Assembly: GCA_946699065.1 (NCBI GenBank)
Contig: CAMPDV010001966.1
Coordinates: 29,181 to 93,180 of the forward strand
Source: Loxodes magnus
Taxonomy: Eukaryota > Ciliophora > Karyorelictea > Loxodida > Loxodidae
DNA: 64,000 nucleotides
Direction: 5' to 3'
Below are positions 10,021 to 60,187 of the stretch, one piece after another. The position numbers and the translations under genes are program-made. Positions within the stretch are counted from its first letter, which is position 1; each line of letters starts with the position of its first letter. Below the pieces are notes generated by a model. That model was not told the origin of the DNA. It did not search any database and worked only from the letters and a program-made list of their open reading frames with translations.

Positions 10021-10877
10021 AAAATCCAAAATTAAATGTTTGGTATTCTTGGAGGTATTTCAACCTCTTTCCCGCCTACCTCTACTAGAGATTAAATATA
10101 AAAGTATGAAAATCTCTACAACTCTTATCCTTGCCATGCATGTTTTCCTTGAATTCTTCTTTTACCTAGAGGCTAGATTTCTTTTTTTTGTTAATTTTCC
10201 CAAGTTTTTAGCAATATAATCTTTCTCTTTTTTCTTTCTATTTTTAGTTTATGTTGTCTTTTCTTTTTGTTTCCAGTTTCTTCTAGAAGTTTCAGTATTC
10301 TTATTTTAAGTTTTTATTATCTAGTATCTTTTCCATATATGCTTTCTTAGATTAAAATAATAGTATATTTTCACTTCTCCTTTAGGTTTAAATTTTTAAT
10401 TATTTTCTTCTTCGATTATCATTGGGTCATTTCCTTATTCTTGTAGATGCATTTAACGCTACGATTTTCGCTGATTTTCTTCTATTTTTTCTATTTTGTT
10501 GATTAGCTCTAGTCTTGTGAAATATTTTAAAATGAGTTAAGATCTCTTTCTTAGGCCATGAGTATCGATTCTATTTCCTCTGCAATTTCAAGTTTTTCCA
10601 TTAACTTATTATTGTCTTTCTTCAATTTTTTTACCTCTTCCTGGAGGTCCAGCACCACTTTAATCAGCTAATCTTAGCTTATTTACTACTACGTAGTGAG
10701 ATTCGAGACTTTCGAGAGCATTATATTTTTAGCCTATTTTCTAGGCATTTCCTCAGAGGTGGGAGATTCATCCTGATGGATGACCTTGCGCCTTTTTCCT
10801 GGTTCTAGACTATCTAGGTTATCATTAAATCCAGTTTTTTAGAGATGAGAAACATCCTGATTTGAATCCTGACATCT
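10021..10877 (-). repeat. left arm of 0.86-kb palindrome (ORF1 copy)
   Basis: This arm is the reverse complement of 11134-11992 with only occasional mismatches; for example GACATC with CAGGATTC on one side answers GAATCCTG with GATGTC on the other, and both outer ends carry the CCTCCAAGAATACC sequence. Read on the minus strand it holds the same decayed ORF1-like coding sequence as the right arm, so the two copies are head to head around a 256-bp centre. Confidence 0.85.
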
Positions 10878-11130: not shown

Positions 11131-11960
11131 ATGAGATGTCAGGATTCAAATCAGGATGTTTCTCGTCTCTAAAAAACTGGATTTAATGATAACCTAGATA
11201 GTCTAGAACCAGGAAAAAGGCGCAAGGTCATCCATCAGGATGAATCTCCCACCTCTGAGGAAATGCCTAGAAAATAGGCTAAAAATATAATGCTCTCGAA
11301 AGTCTCGAATCTCACTACGTAGTAGTAAATAAGCTAGGATTAGCTGATTAAAGTGGTGCTGGACCTCCAGGAAGAGGTAAAAAAAATTGAAGAAAGACAA
11401 TAATAAGTTAATGGAAAAACTTGAAATTGCAGAGGAAATAGAATCGATACTCATGGCCTAAGAAAGAGATCTTAACTCATTTTAAAATATTTCACAAGAC
11501 TAGAGCTAATCAACAAAATAGAAAAAATAGAAGAAAATCAGCGAAAATCGTAGCGTTAAATGCATCTACAAGAATAAGGAAATGACCCAATGATAATCGA
11601 AGAAGAAAATAATTAAAAATTTAAACCTAAAGGAGAAGTGAAAATATACTATTATTTTAATCTAAGAAAGCATATATGGAAAAGATACTAGATAATAAAA
11701 ACTTAAAATAAGAATACTGAAACTTCTAGAAGAAACTGGAAACAAAAAGAAAAGACAACATAAACTAAAAATAGAAAGAAAAAAGAGAAAGATTATATTG
11801 CTAAAAACTTGGGAAAATTAACAAAAAAAAGAAATCTAGCCTCTAGGTAAAAGAAGAATTCAAGGAAAACATGCATGGCAAGGATAAGAGTTGTAGAGAT
11901 TTTCATACTTTTATATTTAATCTCTAGTAGAGGTAGGCGGGAAAGAGGTTGAAATACCTC
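11131..11960 (+). pseudogene. ORF1-like coiled-coil gene in right palindrome arm
   Basis: From ATG 11131 the frame reads MRCQDSNQDVSRLQKTGFND, then a charged region and a coiled coil (LIKVVLDLQEEVKK). After the A8 run at 11379-11386 the coiled coil continues one base out of frame as LKKDNNKLMEKLEIAEEIES. Downstream is Lys-rich with no clear zinc knuckle. The order of parts resembles the ORF1/gag-like proteins at 3567 and 15012. The frame break indicates decay or an assembly indel. The left arm carries the mirror copy. Confidence 0.55.
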
Positions 11961-12222: not shown

Positions 12223-14572
12223 TCAAAAGTATTGACGATTTTCCCAGTCAAAAAACTAATCTATACCTGGTCTTATTTTTTAAGAACATGCACTATTTTT
12301 TCCTATTATTTTAGGTTATTTTTCAGGTTTGATTTCTTAATCTTTATTAATCATTAAGAATTTTTATTGGAATTTTATTTCATTTAACTCTTCGAGATGA
12401 GATTAAATTCTTTTGTAATGACTTAAGATTTAACTTTATTGATTTGAATCTTTTCTTCTATAAATTTTATAAATTGGAGCTTTTTATTCTTAAAGCTTAT
12501 TTTAATAATTTTAGCTTTCCTTTTTTTATTCGAAGAATGTCTCTAAATCTTATGATATGTTGCGTTATTGTAAATTTAATTAGTCGCTTTTTATTATGTC
12601 GTATAAACAAATACACTCTTCACAGTTATTTCTTCACTTTCCAAACAAAATATCTGAGTTGCTACTTATTCAATATCCTATCATAAGCTATCCATTTTAA
12701 AATCAGCCTTCACATTTCTTTATGAAGTTTTCACTCTTATAAATTCATAGTTCTCCATACCCATTCAGCTAATTCAACCTAAAGCTTCCTATATAAATAT
12801 TTTTTTAATTATCAATCATCAACCCGTAACCTTCTATTTAGCCGAAAGCGAAATTGCCTTGATAATAATATTCTTTTGTTAGCAATTTTCCATTTCCATG
12901 AGGTAAACCACTATCTAAATCTACTTATCCTACATACTATTAACCTAACATAGTTTTTTAAACTTTTTATATCCAGTAGTTAGATTTTAGCTTGTTTGTA
13001 TGAATTTAAAAATGAGATATCTTCATTAAAATTTCTAAGAGTTCGTAATTTAAATCTAGATCTGGAATAACTTAATCTGTATTAAATTCTGATACTTCTT
13101 GAAGCTTAATTTTAATATAGCTATTTGGTAGTCCTTCATATTTTAAAGTGTCAAATGTTTCTTAATTAAATTATTGTTCTGCTTTTATAATTTTTTGAGA
13201 TGACAAACTTAAAGATTAAGATGAAATGAGAAATAGATTATCATTTGATTCACTTTCACTATTAACTATATTAATTTTCTCGGCTTTTATATATTCAGGA
13301 TAAATCACTAAATTCTAGAACTTTTTTCAATCTTCTACAAAAATGCTATACAACTCATCAAAATCAGGTCTATCATTTTCATTTATTTAGAGCATAAATT
13401 ATAGAACTATTCTGAAATGAACATTTTCTATATTCTAAAGTGTTTATTATAACTAAGATGCACTAAACTCATTAAGTGCTTTGATAAAATCGAAAGTAAT
13501 CATTTAGTAGAAAACTGCTCCTAAGCTTCATACATCAGATTTAAATGAATTTGTAATTAACATTTATTAATTGTTTTCAATTTTTCAATTGTAAAGAACT
13601 TAAGGAGACATAAACATAGGAGTTCCACAGTATTATCCTTTCATTTCCTCTTAGAAAATAATTGAGATATCGAAATCTATTATCTTCAGGTTGTTATTTT
13701 CATCTAAAACTATATTATCAGTTTTAATATCTTGATTTGCAATTCCATGCATTTAAAGTTATTTATAACCTTCTATAAGGTTTAAGAAATGGTTCTCAAG
13801 TTCTTCATCGGTATAAGGCTATTAGGATTTCTATCTTTTTTCTAACTCCTACTTTAATGATCCTTAATCGTAAAATTTCTATAAAATATCTATTTAATAA
13901 AGAGATTTTTATTTATCTTCAAAATTAGGAATTAACAGCTTTATTACGTCTAAAATTTCTGCTACTTGCTCTATTTTCAATACCTTTAATTTAGGTAATA
14001 AGAAAGCTTCAGCACTTTTTAGATACCTTTCATCATTTGTTTGTAATTATTTGATAAGAATCTTTTTATCAAATTTGATATCTCTAGCTATATAAATAGT
14101 ATCTTTCAAAAAGAATTATTTCTAATCAATAGTTTCTCTGTATTTCTATTTTTTAAGCGTTTTCTCAATGTAATACTTATTCCAAAATTACTTTTTATAC
14201 TATTATATGCTTTTTAAGTATCACTTAGGGAATCTAGTTTCTCTAATCTTGGTATCCTTAGATCAGTGTTGGAATTAACTTTTTTTAATCCTTTTTTAAT
14301 TAATCTTATAAAACCCATCCCTATCCCTATCCCCATCCCCATCCCTATCCCCATCCCCATCCCCGTCCTTTTACAAATTTGGCTAATTGTTTTTTAATCA
14401 TACTATACATTTATGAATCATCAACACTAAGTTCTTAAATATTTTCCAACTGATAAAAATCTTGATCTTAATCACTACTTTGCTATTAAAAAAATTCTAT
14501 TTTAGAGTTATTAATATTTTCTATTAAGGTTTTACTTTAAAATAATAATTAGAATTTCCCAGCTTCTATCAT
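12223..14572 (-). CDS. protein kinase with C-terminal MORN repeats
   Basis: Minus-strand gene. The start ATG (first base 14572) opens MIEAGKFQLLFQSKTLIENI. The kinase domain shows YIARDIKFDKKILIKQL (ATP-Lys region), HGIANQDIKTDNIVL (catalytic loop, ANQD for HRD), IIDFD (DFG equivalent), GTPMFMSPQVL (activation segment) and SDVWSLGAVFYQM, where W is TGA at 13528-13530. After a Ser-rich linker come MORN-type repeats (GLPHGNGKLL, YYYQGNFAFGQIEGYGL, YIGSFRLNQLNGYGEL), which usually bind lipid or fold as scaffolds. It ends with a Q/K-rich tail and TGA at 12223-12225. The N-terminal frame and the kinase frame differ by one base; a 70-nt GT...AG segment spanning the hexamer repeat at 14313-14366 would join them exactly. 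The changed HRD makes activity uncertain. Confidence 0.8.
14313..14366. repeat. CCCYAT hexamer array (GGGRAT on the gene strand)
   Basis: About nine hexamers alternating CCCTAT and CCCCAT. On the kinase coding strand this is a run of GGGGAT and GGGATA units, able to form a G-quadruplex. It lies where the kinase reading frame changes, either inside a short intron or as Gly-Asp or Gly-Trp coding repeats. Confidence 0.9.
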
Positions 14573-33940: not shown

Positions 33941-34024
33941 TTATTTAAAGGTAATTATCTCTCTAATTATACTTCCTTTGTATCTTTAATATAATATTTA
34001 TAATTATTAATTATATGAAAAAGT

Positions 34025-34095
34025 GCGCTATCCGGGACTCGAACCCGGGTCAACTGCTTGGAAGGCAGTTATCCTAACATCTGGACTAATAGCGC
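34025..34095 (-). tRNA. tRNA-Gly (UCC anticodon)
   Basis: The reverse complement folds as a full cloverleaf of 71 nt: acceptor GCGCTAT/ATAGCGC, anticodon arm ACTGC-CTTCCAA-GCAGT giving anticodon TCC, T arm CCGGG-TTCGAGT-CCCGG with a canonical B box. No intron. It decodes GGA, the natural Gly codon in this A+T-rich genome. Confidence 0.95.
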
Positions 34096-35637: not shown

Positions 35638-37648
35638 TCAAAGTTTAGCAGTATAAGTAATTAGAAAAAGCGGAAGGCATAGATTATTCTCGTAAACGAT
35701 ATGCATTCCATGTCCGTTTGTGTAACTATCTTTACCTCCAAGCGACTCTTTGGTGTTATTAAAGCCTTATCCTGCTGTTGATTAATCACCTGTTATAACA
35801 TCTACTAAGAGCATTTAGCATTTCTAATCTTTAGAAAAATGAGTATAGCCTTAACAAAATTAAAAGCTCTCATGGAAATAAATTCCTTTACCATACAAAC
35901 CTTGCTTTGCGAATTCTATCTTTAGTCCAATTTTGTCTTAAATTATAAGAGAAGGATCATTTTATCTAGTACCGTGAAAGAGTAACTTTCTATCAACAGG
36001 TTTGCCTTACTTTTTGGTGAGTAAGTCTATATTAGCTCTAAATCTTATGTACTGATCATAATTGAGAATTCTTTAAATGGTTAGAACTTTTACTTAACTG
36101 GTTTTATTTATCAATCTTAATATCTCATGCCAATCTGCGCTGTCTTCTTATAGAAATACAACATCAAAATTTCTTAATCTATTTATTTCTTGAAATCCTG
36201 GAATTTAGAATCCACTAGCACTCTGCATTTTACTACATTAAAATATAGCACTGTGATTTTCTTAACAGTATGGGACATATGTAAGCCTCACAAATTAAGC
36301 ACTACTAGAACTTTATTTTGCATGAAAATTGATATTCAGATAAATACTTATCTATAAACTATTTAGGTACTTTCAACTGTCCTTCTTAAATTGCCATTTA
36401 TTCGGTTATCTATTCTATGAAATAAAACTTTAAATCAATTTCGTTTTGCTCTATATATTTGGTAAGAAGCTAAACGAACTTTTCTTTCTTAATGAAGTCT
36501 TAAAGGAAACCTTAATAAAATACCAATTCTTTTGTTTTTTCATCATCGTATTGAGCTCATACCATAGCCTAGCAACTTTGCAATACTCCATATCCATTTT
36601 ATAATAAAGACTTCAACATGCTAGCTTGAAATTCAAGTATATTATATAAGTCTTCTATTTGAAGTTCTCTAAAATTACTTGACATATTTGCCTTATTTTA
36701 GTTAAGGAAAGACTCTTAATCACTAACAAGAATTACGCATTCTTTATTTTAGCATGTTTAGCAATTTATTATATTAAATCTATTTAACTTGGCTAAATCA
36801 ACTTATTCTTTCCTGAATAATTCTTTTTCGCATTCTTTTTCTCCATGAGTTTTTTATTTGCATATACAGCAAAAGTTCTCTTTACATATAAAACAGTAAA
36901 ATTTATTTTCATTTTATTCGAGTTCTTGTTCTCTTTCGCATTATCCACATTGGACTATTTTGATTGCTTAATTTTTACTATTGATTTTATCTTATATTTA
37001 TATGAACTACTAAGATAATCTTCCTTTTTAAGCTATTATAGCTACTTCACTTTCTTTTAATAATTTCTAGCAAATTAAGCATTCTAGTGTGATATCTAGC
37101 TAAGACAACTTTTAAATTAATCTTTAAATTAGAGGTTCGTAGCATGTTTTATGGTCACATTTTTCAGTATTATATATTTACTTATTCTAAAGTCACTTTC
37201 TACAATGCTAGCAAAACTAATATTTTTGATTTATTTCTTAAATAGCTGAGTAGACAATCTGTTAATCTATTACTTGGTTACACTCACATTTAAATTTGCC
37301 ATAAGGAATGTTACTTTATGGAATGGATTGCTGAGAAGGTAGTTCTTTTTTATAAGTTTCAAAAATGCAAAAAAGACAGTAGAAGTGATTACATCTCAAC
37401 ATGCTTACTATATTATCTGGGTTCTCTTATAAATCTTCTATTCTTTTGCACCTTACACAGCTTTTTCAAATTTGTATATTTTTAAATTGAGCTGACTTTA
37501 CTGTTATTTCCATATTCGAGTTTTTCAAGTCTGCACAAATTTTATAAATCATCTACTACAAGTCAATTTTCCTCATTTGACTATCTAGTAGCTCTTTTTG
37601 CAAAATGTTGATTTATTCATTCAAGCTTAAATTTGAAGAATTTTACAT
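35638..37648 (-). CDS. RING/IBR zinc fingers fused to a PARP catalytic domain
   Basis: ATG (first base 37648) opens MQNSSNLSLNEQINILQKEL, a coiled coil. Then RING: SCVRCKRIEDLQENPDNIVS, MLRCNHFYCLFC, KCECN; then Cys/His pairs FCQHCRKW, KCDHKTCYE, LECLICQ; then an IBR-like unit VQCGQCE, KFYCFICKENFCCICK, THGEKECEKE. This is the order of RBR ubiquitin ligases. The C-terminal third is a PARP-type ADP-ribosyltransferase: DWHEILRLI, LLFHGTR, GLYGKGIYFHESF, MLLVDVITGD, GMHIVYENNLCLPLFLITY, TGA at 35638-35640. Triad H-Y-M implies mono-ADP-ribosylation. Zinc fingers and catalytic domain are in different frames; a 37-nt GTATTT...AAAG segment near 36330 would join them, or a one-base indel. Confidence 0.75.
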
Positions 37649-43131: not shown

Positions 43132-46092
43132 ATGAATCAAGACTGAATTTCAGAATATGGTCTTAATAATATTAGATAAAAGCTAAATTTATCTGAACTT
43201 AAAAGTGAACAGTTGGCGGAATTTAGCTTATAAGAAACAGAAGATCTTTCAGAGACTTTGAAATTAAGTAATCAAGAAAAAGTCTAGCTGCTAGAAACTT
43301 GACGAAAGATAAAAGACTGATGAAGTAAAATAAAATAGTTTAAACTAGAACGAATATAGGAATAATTGCTAAAGCTGTTTCCTTGTGAAAGTTCTTTCAT
43401 AAATCTAAATTTAGATTAGGTCATAAAAATATTTTCTGATAATTAGATTCAGTTAATAGGAACTGAAATTAATAAAATAAAGCTAGCTCATAACAAATTG
43501 CGAGAATATTAACAGTTAGTTAATTCATCTTAGCAAGAAAATTAAAAGGAGAACTAAGCCGTACTATAAAATACTAACTAACAAGAAAATATAATGTTTG
43601 CCTAATAAAAGCAGAGCGAATAAATTTAAAACGAATAATTATCGCAACAGATCTAACTATTAGATTTAAATATTGTTCACTAAGATTCCAATTAGATTGA
43701 AGAGATAAAAAAGATATAATTCGATAATTATTAATTTCCCATATATAAATTGTGATTAAAGAAATAGAAAAAAAAATAAAAAAAAAAGTTAAAAAAAAAA
43801 TTAAAAATTAAAATTAAAAAAGATTTAATAGAGGTATAAGGAACTTAGTTTTAAATCAATTAATTTATACAAAAATTTGATAAGTTAATTTCAAAAATAG
43901 AAACTGAATAAATTTAGTTAAGCTAAGATTCTTTATAGAAGTTTCAATAAATATATCTATGCAAATAAGAGTAAAAAAATAAGTATGAGAAATTAAGAAA
44001 TGATTATCCATTCTGTGCATTTTAAATTTTGAATTAATCTCTTTAAATTGAAGGAGTTTCTGAGAATAAAGAACAAGCGAAATAAAAAATAAAGAATGAT
44101 TTCGAAGTATTAACATAATTTGTTATATCCATAGAATAGGAAAAGTTTCAATGTATATAAAATATTTAGAAATTGAATAGGCAATTTTTAACTTTATTTC
44201 AGAACTAGGATATAATTTCCTATAAATTTGGCGAAGATTAAATTTATATTAAAGCATATAGCAAGAATACTTAAATTAACTTGTAAAATCAAATAAATAC
44301 ATTAGTTTAGTAGATAAAGCTTGAGGAGAAAAAAATAGAGATCTATAGTATTTCAGAGCTCTAATATTATAAAAGCGAAGTAGGTTAGCAAGATCTTTAA
44401 ACTTTAAGTTAAGTTAATGAAATCCAATTAACTTTATATGTAAAAGTGAAATCCAATAAATTTAAGCCATAATCATTATAAACTTAATAACCTAATCTTT
44501 CCTATGAGTGGTAATGAAAAAATGATTTTGGGAAATGAACTTCTTATCCAAAAATTGTATAGCAAAAAATTGAGGAAAGTTATGCTTAGAACTAAATACA
44601 GAAATGCTTAATCATAGTACCTTCTGATGAAGACAGTTAGTAAAAATATCTTTAATTAGATTTTATAGCTTAAAAATAAACTAATAATTAAACTTAGTTT
44701 AAAAGAGACATAAGAAGAGTGGAAAGCAATTTTCAAGCACAGCAATCTATTAAATCTTATGATTGACAATGACTAGATGATTAAAAATAATGAAATTCAT
44801 ATGATTAAGCAAGTTAACTTGAAATAGAAGAAGCTTTCTAAAAGGATAACAAAAGTAAAATGTGGATTAGCCTAGTTTCAAATAATACAAAATAGCCAAT
44901 TAAATATAAAATTAATTTTGTTAAGATGGTCTAGAAAAATATAAAAACAAAGTTTGAAAGGCCTTTACAAAGAGTAGTATTAAGTAACTCTTAAACATCA
45001 TAAGCTGAAAACTAGTGGCTCTGGATAGAAGACTCTACTTATAAAGCTTTTGACCTCCAAATAAATAATTAGATAGACTAAGCTTTTTAATAAGGATAAG
45101 AAAAAATCTATATTAAAATGAACTTTGTTAAATATGAAGTAGATTTAGTTAAAAACAACTTATATAATATATATATCAATGAAGTGATGAAAATAGTTAA
45201 AACATAGATATAAAAACCAATAGGTTATATAATCCTAAAGGGATTATTAGAAGATATAGAGTTAAGCACTATAAAATTTTAGGAATTCTAGAGTTGTAAA
45301 TAAGTTAGTGTAGACAATTTTGAAAAAGCACTCGATATTGCTAAGTAGCATAATGTGCTTTTAATTTTCAAGGATAATGAATTTTTCCTTTTGGGATATA
45401 CGAGTGAAGTATAGAAGGCTAAGGAAAAGTTGACAATCATTAATTATGGTATTTGAAATAATGCAAATCAGTTAGAAGTAAAGTATCCTGAATATTGAGA
45501 GTAATCATAATAGCTTTATTGCTAATATGATTTAAGCTAAAATTCAAAATTGTTTAGACAAATTTAGACCAATTTCAATAAAACTGTTCCACAAGGTAAA
45601 GTTGTAAGAATATCTGTCATTTAAAATAAGGCCCTATACTAAAGATATTGAAACGAGTTATAAATTTTAAAAAATATATATGGAAAGAATCCAAGAGTAG
45701 AACATTTATATCATGGAACTAAAGGAACACCTCCAGAAGAAATATGTAAAGGAGAAATAGGAATTGATAATAAATATACATTGGAAAAAAGCATTTATGG
45801 AAAAGGCAATTATTTTGCTATTGAAGCTTCTTATTCTAATAATGGTTACGCTTACAAGGTACCAAACCAAAATATTTAATACTAGATGATTCTGTGTGAC
45901 GTTATTGTTGGAGAAGTTTTCTAAGCTTAAAATTAGCAAAAATATTAATATCCTCCTATTAATACTAACTTCACTAGTTTTGAAAAGCGGTATGACTCAA
46001 TAACTAACAAAACTTAGATGTATATAGTATTCGAAAATGAAAGGGCTTATCCTTCGTTTATCATTACTTATAACTTTGCTAAAGCACCTTGA
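43132..46092 (+). CDS. PARP with SAM-like, KH-like and three WWE domains, 986 aa
   Basis: One uninterrupted frame from ATG 43132 to TGA 46090-46092. Residues 1-65 are a SAM-like domain (MNQDWISEYGLNNIRQKLNL). A Q-rich linker and Lys-rich tract (about 205-230) lead to a KH-like region (LNQSLQIEGVSENKEQAKQK). WWE domains begin near residues 457 (SYEWQWKNDFGKW), 542 (SYDWQWLDDQKQW) and 625 (ENQWLWIEDSTYKAF); several of these W are TGA, and the conserved MxQxN Gln of WWE2 is TAG (44932). The C-terminal catalytic domain has HLYHGT (H861), YGKGNYFA (Y894), YSNNGYAY and MYIVFENERAYPSFIITY, with M963 where polymerases have Glu. WWE domains bind ADP-ribose chains; the H-Y-M triad predicts a mono-ADP-ribosyltransferase of PARP10/14 type. 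Confidence 0.9.
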
Positions 46093-52292: not shown

Positions 52293-52363
52293 GGCTCTAT
52301 GGTGTAAGGGTAGCACGTGGGCCTACGGAGCCCAAAATTGGGGTTAAAATCCCTGTAGAGTGG
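52293..52363 (+). tRNA. tRNA-Arg-like (ACG anticodon), possibly degenerate
   Basis: Folds as a cloverleaf: D arm GTGT/GCAC with GG in the loop, anticodon arm TGGGC-CTACGGA-GCCCA giving ACG, T arm TGGGG/CCCTG. The T loop is TTAAAAT instead of TTCRANN and the first acceptor pair is G-G, both unusual. A T5 tract follows (52365-52369), as for a Pol III gene. It may be a tRNA-Arg with an eroded B box or a pseudogene. Confidence 0.6.
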
Positions 52364-52364
52364 C

Positions 52365-53094: not shown

Positions 53095-55190
53095 TCAAAT
53101 TAAATTATTAGAAATGTTAATTAAATAGTCCCAGGAAAAAAAGAAACTGGAGACGTCATTAACAGTTTTATATGATGGTATTATAATAGTAGGCATAGAG
53201 TTATTATAGCTAACTGAAAAATCTACTATCTTTATGTCTTCTACTAGATCTAAGATCCATTATTTTTTCAGCCTTATTTTATGAATACTATCTTTAGTTT
53301 TCCCTCCCTTATGAATTCCTCTACTAATAACAGGACTTAATATTGTTTTACGCAAGTTTAAATTAAAGTATCATAGCATTCTTGTTGGTCAGTCGCATCC
53401 TGTAAATATAATTTTAAAGTCAGGTCACATATAGTTTGGGACGATAAAATTGAAACTTCATTCTATTTTATCGATATAAAATTGAAAAAGAGACTCATGC
53501 TATGTTAAATTGGTAGGCGAAGTTGTCAATAAAACAGCTCCGATTCTTTTACCCCAATTAGCGCTATGAATAAATTTTTGATTTACTCATTTACTATATT
53601 CGAAAAAATCTTTAGTCATAACTACATCTTCTTCACAGTAGACGACTGATTTAGCTTTCAAATGACTAAAAGTTATATTAAATAGAAAAAATGCATTTGA
53701 AGCGCTTTTAAATTAAATAAACTTTTTTCTAAATAGTCGTTCATATTCTACTTCAGGATGCATTACATAAATTATATTCAGTATACCTTTGCTTTTATGC
53801 TTGTTTATTAAGTCTGTCACATTTTCATAGTTTCCATCTTAAGATATTATAATAATGGTTTCTTTAATTCCATCAGCTTTCTCAAGAGACTCTAAAGTTT
53901 CTCTCAGATTTTCTAATCTTTTATAAACTGGCATTATAATAGGAAACAGCTCTTCTTATTTTAAGCTGAGTCTTCCTATTAATTGTTCGTATTAGTAACG
54001 GACTTAGTCATAAATTTCAGGATGCCATTATTCAAAACTATAAGGATTGCAAGCTTCTTAGTGAATATGCATAATAGGAGTAAATCTTTAATCAGCAAAT
54101 TAGCCATAATGATTTTTACTTATCTGGAAAACATCTTAAACTGCATGAATCTAGTTTTTTTCTTCTTGCATTGGAATAAAGTTATAGTATTCACTCTTCA
54201 TGTAAGTCTTTTTAAAATAATTCCCTAAACTATTTTTAAAGGCTAGATCTTAGTCTCTTGAAATTTAGTCTAGTAGTTTATATTAATTTTTAATGTAAAA
54301 GTTCATAAACTTAAACCAATTAAAATTTCCTACTATTTCTTTACTCAACTAATGTATTGGTAATTTCTCAATCACTTAAGCACCTAATCTAAATCTTCTT
54401 CCAGTTTACATTAATCTATAGTAGTTTTAGTCATATATTGAGAATATCCTTTAGTTTATTCTAATTTAAGCTTTTGGCATCTATTCATTTTCTTTCTTGT
54501 TAAAGAAGTTTGTTCCACTTGCAGTAAGTAGTATTTAAATATTATACCAGAAGCCTTGCTCTATTTAGGCGTCTAAGTAAATATATTAGCATCCTTTATC
54601 TGAACCAAGTTCTAAAAGTATTTCTTTTTTATTTTAATGATTTTTATTTATAACCAGATATAAAAAATAACCTCAGTTGTCATTTAATGGACTACATCCT
54701 TATATTTTATTTCCTAATATTGCAAATCTCTTTTCTTATATTTGGATTAGCTTATTCGTATCAGATGCATAAGAATAGTTTCAAAGTTACTATTTTTAGT
54801 ATCTTAATGAATCAAAACTAAATTATATCCAAATTGATATTACAAGCTCAGGAAAATCAAAAGAATTAAGTGGACCATGAAAAACAAATTATTCACCTCA
54901 CTATAAGTTGAATTAAAGGTGGCCAGAAGGAGGATTCGAAATATTTCATTCAATAGTACTTTTATTTTACTATAACTATACGTATTCCTTGCTAAATGAC
55001 TAAAGTTACTAATTTAATATTTTTATTTCAGTAAAATTAGCCTGTATTCTTATTCTTCCTTTATCCTAATTTTTAATTTTAACTGAGTGAAAAATTCCTA
55101 CAAATATAGTTACAAATCCTACTATAACCAGAATATAAAAGGTATTCTAAATTTTAATTTTTAGTTTGTAATAAAATTATTTTAACTTTT
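53095..55190 (-). CDS. type II membrane glycosyltransferase, GnT-I (GT13)-like
   Basis: Minus strand. Near the N-terminus FYILVIVGFVTIFVGIF is a signal anchor, as in Golgi type II enzymes. A lumenal region follows (SNPPSGHLQFNLQWGEQFVF, KIQGCSPLNDNWGYFLYLVI, TASGTNFFNKKENEQMPKAQ). The catalytic part shows ELFPIIMPVYKRLENLRETL, ETIIIISQDGNYENVTDL and VVYCEEDVVMTKDFFEYSKW, which match the N-acetylglucosaminyltransferase I family pattern (SQD, then E-D-D metal site, then DFFEYF). End LINISNNLI, TGA 53095-53097. No ATG is present upstream of the anchor in frame, so the start is unresolved (intron or assembly error). It is divergent from the RING copy at 55212. Confidence 0.65.
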
Positions 55191-57686: not shown

Positions 57687-60187
57687 TCAACAGTCGTATT
57701 TTTTTATTTCTTTCAAAATATCTTAATTTTTAGATGGCTTGAATAAAACCTTATTCATCCCAGCTTTCAAGCATCTTTCTACATCTTGCTCATGTGCATA
57801 TGCTGTATATCCTACTATGGCTCCTTGGTAGCCTATCTACCTCAAAAATTCTTACTGCCTCCCATCCATTTAAAACTGGCATTTCGCAATCCATTATTAT
57901 TACTTGAAACTATTTACAGCATTTGCTTCTTAATCTTTATTTTACTTGGTCTACAGCTTCCTTTCCATTCACAACTGCTTTAAAAGTATAGTTGTTTTCT
58001 TCTAAAATTTATGATAAAATCATTCTTATTATCTCTGAATCATCTACCAGCAAAATTTACTCACACTAGCATATGGTGGGGATTCTACTTAAATAAGAAT
58101 CAAAATTTTCCAAACTATCAAAGGAAGGGATCATCAGCTAGCTCTATTTCTCAAGCATTTAAGAAGAGGTTATTAGCATTTTGATAGTCTTGGCCTTCTT
58201 CTTAATTTTTCTATTTCTCTACTGTTACTCAATAATTTAATGCTTCATAACTTTGCTAATATTTTTAGATTTTATGTTAAACGAAAACTTGCTGAATTTA
58301 TTAAGTTCTGATTTTATTTTATATTCTACTCTCCTAGTAACAAAGCTATTTTCTGAGCTATATACAACCACATTCCACATCCTTAAGGTTTATCTAGATC
58401 TATTTCTTGTCTATCAAACAATTGCTTGAATAAATATTTCTGCTTTTCTTCACTTATTCCTACTCCACTATCTTTCACTCATACTTTATAGTTTATGAAC
58501 TCGTTGTCTTCATTTATTAATTCGCTTTTTTTATTCCTAGATAAATAAACCCTGAGTTTGTATATTTCAAAGCGTTGGCTAAGAAAATTTGTAGAATAAA
58601 GAGAATTTTTTATTTATCTGTAGAAATCTCTTCAGGAACGTCAAACTTGATAAACTATAAAAGTTGAATTGGTTTACTTTGAATATGAAACTTAATAGTT
58701 TTAAAAGCTTCTTCAAATAAAGTTTTTATATTAATTACTTCATACACTAGCTTTTGATTTTCATCTTATAAGAACTAGGTTAAAGAGAGTGTCATGTTTA
58801 TTAGGTTTTAGCTTTCTTATTCTATTATTTCAGCCTTATAAACTGATTCACTATGTCGTATTCTACTTATGCTCTTTAATTTAATTTTTCTCACTTTAAA
58901 TAGAAGGACTTTTGATTTAATTATTGATTCTGCTCTGTTTATTTTAGCTCTAAAGTTGGATTTTCTTAGCGTCATGGTTTCTTCGCCTTCTTTTTCAGAT
59001 AAAATTTCAGAAATTTATTGAAAAGAAAGATTGCTCCAAATTTCTTCCTTACTCTCAGTGTCTTTTTTATTAGAAAAAGACAAGGAATTTTAGATTTACT
59101 GAGCCATGCTCATTATTAGAGTAGTAGGATGTCTTACTTGGTGATTGAACTCTCTTAGAAACAGAGTTTTATACTTATTAGATAAGTTTTATCTCTCAGC
59201 ATTATAAGATTCAGTCAAGTTATTAATATTAAGTAGCACTGCTTCTTCATTTTCCCATATAGTATTAAGAGCTTAAATTTAGAAATACATTAACTTGGAG
59301 CTTTTCTTTAGCTTCCAAAATTACTTTACTTTCACTATATAATTTTCAGACTATTCTTAACTTTTTGAGTCGATGTATTTATCAAGCGCTTATTTGAAAG
59401 TATTTCCGATGACTTAACTAAAGTCAGCTCTTTCAAGGAATTCATAGAAACAGGCAGTGTTAATCATTTTTCTTAGTAGTTTATTGCTGTACATTATTTA
59501 GTTTTAGTTGAAGATTATTATCCCTGTATTACAGTTGTTAGTAAGAAACTTCAAAGTCTATATTTGCTTCTGAATCAGAAGCTGCTTTTCAAAGCATTCT
59601 TTGGTGAACTTCTGATTGTTAATAATAGTACTGAAACTTATTCCGAATGCTATAAAGAGAGTCATGAAAAGTTCTGACTTAATAGTGTTGAAAAAACCAT
59701 TTCAAATAGCAAGCCCAAAGCTTGTAAAGATTTAAAGAATTATAAATATTAAGGTTAGCTTTTAGTTCTTGAGATATATATTGTTGGACATTGGAATCAT
59801 CAACACAAAAAGAAGCGAAACTCAGGTATCGTTAGCATTCTGCAGTGAGTATTTAAAAGATTTAAATATGAAATAAAAGAAAAGAGCGAAGGCAGGAACT
59901 TTACTATTTTCAAAATATCTTCACGAAACTTTAATTCCTTCCATTATCAGAACTCTTATGCACGATATCAGTACTTGCTCGGATTCTTGATACCACAGAA
60001 TACTTTAAAAAAGTTAAAAGTAAACAACTGGAGTAATGATGAAATATAAGACTGACTGATCATTTCTAATAGCTTAGTTAATAAATGTTTGGTACCCCGC
60101 TTTTCTTTAGAAGGCTCCATATTTAATAATTATGCTTTATTAACTAAATTTATCCTAAAAGAATCATATATCAATTAAATATACCAT
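57687..60187 (-). CDS. hybrid membrane histidine kinase with receiver domain
   Basis: ATG (first base 60187) opens MVYLIDIWFFQDKF. Membrane spans follow (SVLYFIITPVVYFQLF; FALFFYFIF; SLLFVLMIPM; LTLIFIILQIF; LFMTLFIAFGISFS), then a PAS-like region (LTNNCNTGIIIFNQNQIMYS, ACFYEFLERADFSQVIG), the H box REFNHQVRHPTTLIMSMA (near 59130-59143), N box IFLANALKYTNSG, G boxes VKDSGVGIS and GCGMWLYIAQKIALLLG, and a receiver with ILLVDDSEI, IIMDCEMPVLNGWEA (Asp at 57889-57891), IVGYTAYAH and MNKVLFKPS. Stop TGA 57687-57689. Two one-base breaks occur in an A7 run (near 58530) and a T5 run (near 57850). It would autophosphorylate on His and pass phosphate to its own Asp. Confidence 0.85.

Follow-up and report, generated by a model that had tools for sequence, protein, structure and literature searches.

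Loxodes magnus is predicted to encode, in many copies, a single protein chain in which RING- and RBR-type fingers precede an ADP-ribosyltransferase (PARP) domain. By sequence comparison, the fingers consist of an extra N-terminal RING and a module homologous to the RING1-IBR part of RBR ubiquitin ligases, and the PARP is of the PARP12/14 type. The gene that we studied lies in a window of 64,000 nucleotides (C1966:29181-93180), the whole stretch of DNA that was analysed, in an assembly of 705,730,643 bases (705.7 Mb); the somatic assembly of L. magnus is given as 706 Mbp (PMC11441545). The features of the gene and of its closest neighbour are collected in Table 1.

Table 1. Positions (in the window) and supporting evidence for the finger-PARP gene, its domains and residues, and the neighbouring WWE-PARP gene
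Feature	Position	Strand	Evidence
Whole finger-PARP gene	35638..37648	-	ATG at 37648; TGA 35638-35640 taken as stop
N-terminal RING (residues 64-123), CxxC..CxHxxCxxC..CxC	37280..37459	-	zf-C3HC4 E=6.4e-4; RNF4 profile match; eight ligands in 7/11 rows
RBR RING1-like finger (residues 146-193), CxxC..CxHxxC..CxxC	37070..37213	-	Aligned to HOIP RING1 and seven same-genome RBRs
IBR (residues 234-273), CxxC..CxxCx4CxxC..(H)..C	36830..36949	-	PF01485 E=6.4e-4, window segment
First CxxC of degenerate third RBR domain (C296, C299), with C304	36737..36763	-	Aligned to first CxxC of Rcat in same-genome RBRs
Helical insert (residues 312-445), invariant G-x-G-x2-QSCQA-x2-W; possibly UBA-like	36314..36715	-	Invariant positions in alignments A1/A4
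In-frame TGA read as Trp (W364)	36557..36559	-	Column of 11 members: TGA in 10, TGG in 1
1-nt homopolymer length difference, shifts the window frame	36272..36274	-	Absent in 11/12 other near-identical copies
Second half of last finger (residues 450-471), CxxCx4CxxCx3Hx5C	36235..36301	-	Ligand conservation in A1
PARP catalytic domain (residues 488-666)	35650..36186	-	PF00644 E=2.4e-12
Triad His H558 (HGT)	35974..35976	-	Invariant, 11/11
Triad Tyr Y590 (GIYFHE)	35878..35880	-	Invariant, 11/11
Third triad position Met M648 (GMHIVYEN)	35704..35706	-	Invariant, 11/11
Divergent neighbour gene, three WWE domains and PARP	43840..46092	+	WWE 1.1e-25, PARP 4.1e-13

Gene structure, genetic code and the gene family

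In the window, fingers and PARP follow each other on the minus strand from 37,648 to 35,638, and the coordinates and anatomy given by an earlier sequence-only reading proved correct. The two parts lie in different frames: the finger part starts with the ATG at 37,648 and the PARP part ends with the TGA at 35,638. The frame change falls inside the last finger and goes with a homopolymer length difference of one nucleotide. An intron is not needed to explain it, because this difference is absent from 11 of the 12 other near-identical copies in the genome. The 37-nt intron that had been proposed for the region 36250-36450 is therefore unsupported, and a 16-nt intron, which we also considered, was set aside on the same evidence. 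For Loxodes introns, a modal size of 17 nt is reported, with sizes under 16 nt negligible (PMC11441545).

Including that of the window, the near-identical copies occupy 13 loci and are 98.5–99.3% identical. One uninterrupted frame of 669 codons, followed by TGA, runs through fingers and PARP in eight of the 12 others, and the window copy is longer by 1 nt. L027 and L028 reach the end of the PARP in frame with several indels in between, while L038 and L039 do not reach it in frame. The only one of the 12 aligned copies to share the 1-nt difference near 36,274 is L039, which is itself rich in other indels. In the window, the difference comes either from an error in the assembly or from a broken allele. 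A response regulator gene at 57690-58120 (minus strand) slips frame in a T run in a similar way, through an assembly indel or as a broken copy; since this gene also shifts frame at a homopolymer, small length errors may be common in this region.

Under NCBI table 27, TAA and TAG are read as glutamine. This is the code reported for L. magnus, with TGA as tryptophan or stop (PMC11441545). With TAA and TAG assigned to glutamine and TGA to tryptophan, the apparent stops within the finger-PARP gene become tryptophans. The window copy has three in-frame TGAs (codons 61, 152 and 364). We counted 34 TGAs in the 11-member alignment of the family; the 12 that fall in columns with a clear majority are all in tryptophan columns, and the other 22 are in variable columns. 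In the neighbouring WWE-PARP gene, TGA sits at tryptophan positions of the WWE domains, as judged by eye. The tryptophan columns of the family and the TGAs of the WWE gene together rule out TGA as an internal stop. A real stop between the fingers and the PARP, which the sequence-only reading had named as evidence against a single gene, was thus not found: the in-frame TGAs are read as tryptophan.

A genome search with the finger half gave 69 matches, which merged to 60 loci. The PARP half could be shown at 42 of these loci, the other 18 being unread. At 24 of the 60, a PARP match lies directly downstream on the same strand. Among the other 36, four near-identical copies (L031, L032, L038 and L039) hold the whole gene, and a PARP is also carried by 13 fetched relatives (L044-L050 and L053-L058) and by L074 (contig C180). 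The frame changes inside L050 and L053, and L053-L056 start in another frame. Two further loci, L018 and L073 (contig C386), were reached via their PARP. L017 keeps the last finger and the PARP, with the N-terminal fingers absent from the stretch fetched. The 11-row alignment A1 is composed of one near-identical copy and ten chosen relatives, which are 36–52% identical to this first row, and a co-linear fusion in a single frame is also found in diverged relatives at 35–55% identity.

Rates of substitution, calculated by the method of Nei and Gojobori, were usable for six of 55 pairs, among L060, L061, L063 and L064. For these six, dN/dS was 0.31–0.46 in the fingers, 0.17–0.34 in the insert and last finger and 0.22–0.38 in the PARP. 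Three near-identical pairs (L044, L054, L057) had too few changes for their values, up to 1.1 in the fingers, to be of use, and the 46 remaining pairs were excluded as saturated or nearly so. In the six measurable pairs, purifying selection acts on both halves of the gene. A selection of 31 PARP domains from the fetched loci was placed on a tree, with L014 omitted as the same locus as L062. In this tree, which has several long end branches, 13 finger-bearing PARPs form one group against nine WWE ones, and L018 has no settled place. The finger-PARPs also stand apart from five PARP1-like genes (L001-L005, labelled by eye). No relatives of the finger-PARPs were found in viral contigs or in bacterial and archaeal genome contigs; since the searched collections were viral, bacterial and archaeal, this has no bearing on other ciliates.

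Fingers, insert and catalytic domain

The N-terminal RING begins with the pair C64/C67. The match of the window finger segment to Pfam zf-C3HC4 (Table 1) is below the curated cut-off. With a profile of nine family members, the first finger matches RNF4 at 1.9e-5 in a two-RING chain and, weakly, at 0.0058 in a single-RING chain. All eight metal ligands are present in the window gene and in 7 of the 11 rows of A1, a count to be read with the caveat that L054 and L057 start in another frame or are unplaced. The RING is degenerate in L048 and has Asp for His in L062. In most rows, the last ligand pair has C-x-C spacing, and Ile or Val follows the first Cys in seven of the eight rows that keep the first pair. 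In active RING-type E3 ligases, a linchpin Arg usually follows the last ligand. No Arg is found at this place in the 11 rows of A1, which have N, T, Q, K or S instead.

The fingers behind the RING had been described as standing in RBR order. This held for RING1, the IBR and the first CxxC of Rcat; it did not for the rest, with an extra RING in front, a last finger that is split and no catalytic Cys. Seven RBRs of the same genome served as our yardstick (an eighth, L066, was dropped because of its broken frame). By hhalign, the family aligns with these seven over RING1, the IBR and the first Rcat CxxC (94.4%, E=9.3e-8). A repeat of the profile comparison scored 55 (92.8%, E=4.1e-7); 100 column-shuffled controls averaged 15.1 and reached 21.8 at most, and the reversed profile scored 20.8. 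L018 alone gave no significant match to the RBR profile (probability 4.3%). The finger half had zero matches among solved structures at E<=10 with phmmer. In the nine-member profile, the second and third fingers matched TRIM2 (1.4e-6), TRIM3 (1.2e-5) and the RING1-IBR of HOIP/RNF31, the last with a whole-chain E value of 3.9e-5 and one of 4.3e-4 for its best stretch; this search returned no Rcat match. The profile searches that the sequence-only reading had proposed thus recovered an RBR relationship in the finger half and, as described below, a PARP. AlphaFold models predicted from the single sequences, with no alignment, were of no use (mean pLDDT 32.6 for the finger piece and 28.7 for the PARP piece of the window).

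In the RING1-like finger, seven ligands are invariant in the 11 rows and one RING1 ligand is not conserved. The IBR segment of the window scores under the Pfam curated cut-off, and an IBR match at E<=0.1 is found in 8 of 11 members (best 1.5e-5). Its seven Cys are invariant in the 11 rows and the His is kept in seven of them; among the eight unbroken near-identical copies, His 268 is Asn in three. C296 and C299 are constant in all 11 rows of A1. In the A1 family, about 150 residues then interrupt the third RBR domain, which is contiguous in L018 and L073. In the second half of the last finger, all 11 rows share C450, C453, C458, C461 and H465, and 10 have C471; in L018, the second and third ligands of this finger are spaced as in Rcat (by eye).

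The place of the Rcat catalytic Cys, five residues before C450, is occupied by Ile in 11 of 11 rows of A1, and by eye a Cys is also absent from this place in L018 and L073, which are without the insert. All seven same-genome RBRs have this Cys (alignment A3). The complete ligase that the sequence-only reading implied for the RBR part is therefore not borne out. In the window gene, the Cys nearest to this place is C443, which is Ser in four of the eight unbroken copies and Cys in no other row of A1. The insert itself gave a UBA match in one of nine members (E=0.0059) and no significant match to solved structures. It contains the one invariant Cys outside the fingers, C359. We do not favour C359 as a surrogate catalytic residue, because its surroundings look UBA-like and it stands, by eye, where a helix of this kind would have a small residue.

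The C-terminal half had been read as an ADP-ribosyltransferase with HGT, YFH and an H-Y-M triad, and this was confirmed by the Pfam match and by the invariance of H558, Y590 and M648 (Table 1). The PARP piece of the window scores 47.2 bits against PF00644, with a curated cut-off of 26.7, and 9 of 11 members match this family at E<=0.1. The closest solved structures are PARP12 (5.3e-7) and PARP14 (8.5e-7), and the PARP profile of the family matches PARP14 at 6.7e-15. The third triad residue is also Met in L074 and, by eye, is not Met in L018 and L073.

Possible functions and related proteins

We prefer to see in these proteins a mono-ADP-ribosyltransferase guided by a module that docks onto the ubiquitin system, and not a canonical RBR ligase, and we give this interpretation about an even chance. 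The RING or RING1-IBR part, perhaps together with the possibly UBA-like insert, would dock onto a charged E2, onto ubiquitin or onto proteins that carry it. The PARP would then put single ADP-ribose units on a nearby target, which could be the substrate, the E2 or ubiquitin. We infer the binding of E2 or ubiquitin by the fingers as well as this order of events. Mono- rather than poly-ADP-ribosylation would be expected because the triad is H-Y-M, and a non-acidic third triad residue has been linked to mono-ADP-ribosylation (PMC2964712). The sequence-only reading had suggested a single chain with both chemistries. RBR-type fingers and an H-Y-M transferase do occur in one chain; since both the Rcat Cys and the RING linchpin Arg are missing, only ADP-ribosylation is likely of the two putative chemistries.

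It is also possible, with clearly less probability, that the N-terminal RING is an active ligase of the scaffold type and that the PARP marks the same substrates, which would then carry both marks or a hybrid ADP-ribose-ubiquitin. Such hybrid chemistry is established for DELTEX enzymes (PMC12687431). The RNF4 matches and the Ile or Val after the first RING Cys are consistent with an active RING, and another RING-PARP fusion of the same genome, L011, has a RING that matches better (zf-RING_5 8.9e-6). However, the linchpin position and the C-x-C spacing of the last pair argue against ligase activity, and none of the 12 Pfam families that the 11 members match at E<=0.1 is the Deltex C-terminal domain.

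One could go further and propose a ubiquitin-docking and ubiquitin-writing module that was fused to a mono-ART and multiplied into dozens of loci, giving a single enzyme able to write the two marks or a hybrid. This family, the neighbouring WWE-PARPs and the second RING-PARP would then add up to a large ADP-ribose/ubiquitin arsenal, plausibly for intracellular defence, in a genome that is crowded with retrotransposons and does not undergo extensive DNA elimination. We regard this scenario, setting included, as speculative and somewhat less probable again.

The fingers might instead lie outside the ubiquitin system and serve the PARP only as modules for binding protein, RNA or DNA or for dimerisation. 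The degenerate third domain and the varying IBR His and RING ligands would fit this idea, as would a dN/dS that, in five of the six measurable pairs, is larger for the fingers than for the PARP, and the loss of the N-terminal fingers from the stretch fetched for L017. We nevertheless consider it unlikely, since the 11 rows do not vary in the RING1-like ligands, the IBR Cys or most of the last finger, and the RBR profile match is still recognisable. Quite improbable is a canonical RBR ligase with a PARP attached, in which ubiquitin would form a thioester on an active Cys and then be transferred. The RING1-IBR homology and the invariant C359 could be cited in its favour, but the Rcat position lacks a Cys in the 11 rows of A1 and in L018 and L073, C443 is not conserved even among near-identical copies, and C359, by eye, stands where a UBA-like helix would have a small residue. 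That the fusion is an artefact, made of two adjacent genes or a pseudogene, is hardly credible: the window copy and some relatives are frame-shifted, but the frame is unbroken in most near-identical copies, the single-frame fusion recurs in diverged relatives and both halves are under selection.

Ubiquitin and ADP-ribose signalling meet through separate partners (PARP9-DTX3L, DELTEX, RNF114), and a few single chains combine them. The sequence-only reading had them linked by separate proteins, which is right for PARP9-DTX3L and overlooks single-chain cases described in PMC2964712 and PMC4245714: a Dictyostelium protein with U-box, macrodomain and PARP, and fungal proteins with PARP and UBCc. 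The Dictyostelium protein, DDB0232928 or pARTg (the cited passages suggest that these are one protein), has an N-terminal U-box, a macrodomain and a C-terminal clade-3 PARP (PMC2964712, PMC4245714, PMC5087659). Like the finger-PARPs, it combines an N-terminal E3-type domain and a C-terminal PARP in one chain. The finger-PARPs differ from it in having a RING and RBR-derived fingers in place of the U-box, and Pfam matched no macrodomain in any of the 11 members (E<=0.1). Proteins of the PARP6/8-like type that carry a UBCc (E2) domain are reported from fungi, moss and algae (PMC2964712, PMC4245714); they also join a PARP to a ubiquitin-system domain in one chain, but according to these sources the domain is of the E2 type and the PARP belongs to another clade.

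Among RBR ligases, HOIP/RNF31 and RNF216 have a RING1-IBR and a first Rcat CxxC that align in order with the finger-PARPs, which differ from them by the extra front RING, the third domain split by the insert, the lack of the catalytic Cys and the PARP behind. The mono-ARTs PARP12 and PARP14 have the catalytic domain and the H-Y-nonacidic triad in common with the finger-PARPs, but according to PMC4245714 this type carries CCCH fingers, WWE domains or macrodomains in front and not RING/RBR. The DELTEX ligases and PARP9-DTX3L couple ubiquitin and ADP-ribose, as the finger-PARPs may do; in the DTX proteins, as far as PMC12687431 describes them, a RING is joined to a DTC, the domain that Pfam did not find in the finger-PARPs, and the PARP is a separate partner. 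We found no description of an RBR-PARP fusion in the open-licence PMC literature, a scope outside which most subscription papers lie. A PARP with a ubiquitin-system domain is thus already known, and RBR-derived fingers on a PARP are a new variant. A family with many members that combines RBR-derived fingers with a PARP of the PARP12/14 type is a natural test of whether one protein can write or read both marks together. It is also an example of an RBR ligase module losing its Cys and being put to a new use, perhaps targeting, and the size of the family in one ciliate bears on why PARPs of the PARP12/14 type expand.

Neighbouring PARP genes and other features of the window

The WWE-PARP gene lies head-to-head with the finger-PARP gene in the same multi-copy segment, and nine copies of the segment, including that of the window, hold both genes among the matches listed. 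At least 82 PARP matches were found in the L. magnus genome, with near-identical copies counted apart. Several of them are on contigs C92 and C10, and the loci read there are mostly WWE-PARPs. L011 (C10:1445656, plus strand) has a helical-looking stretch besides its RING, and its PARP falls within the WWE group, so that fusions of the RING-PARP kind appear to have two separate origins in this genome.

Pfam searches in three frames (E<=0.01) did not bear out a reverse transcriptase that had been suspected by eye at 61.5-63.8 kb. A GC-richer stretch, with translations that recur in pieces (by eye), is found at about 33.1-34.0, 27.4-27.7, 16.2-16.9 and 62.1-62.6 kb and is perhaps an interspersed repeat. 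The window also holds an inverted repeat (10153-10773 and 11149-11859) with an identical translation on opposite strands, a tRNA-Gly(TCC) at 34023-34095 (minus strand) and a tRNA-Arg(ACG) at 52293-52364 (plus strand). Two further protein-coding features were recognised on the minus strand: a protein kinase domain at 13300-14421 (Pkinase E=4.3e-23) and an MGAT2/GT2-like glycosyltransferase at 53200-54498 (MGAT2 E=1.2e-7), which has TGA codons where tryptophan is plausible.
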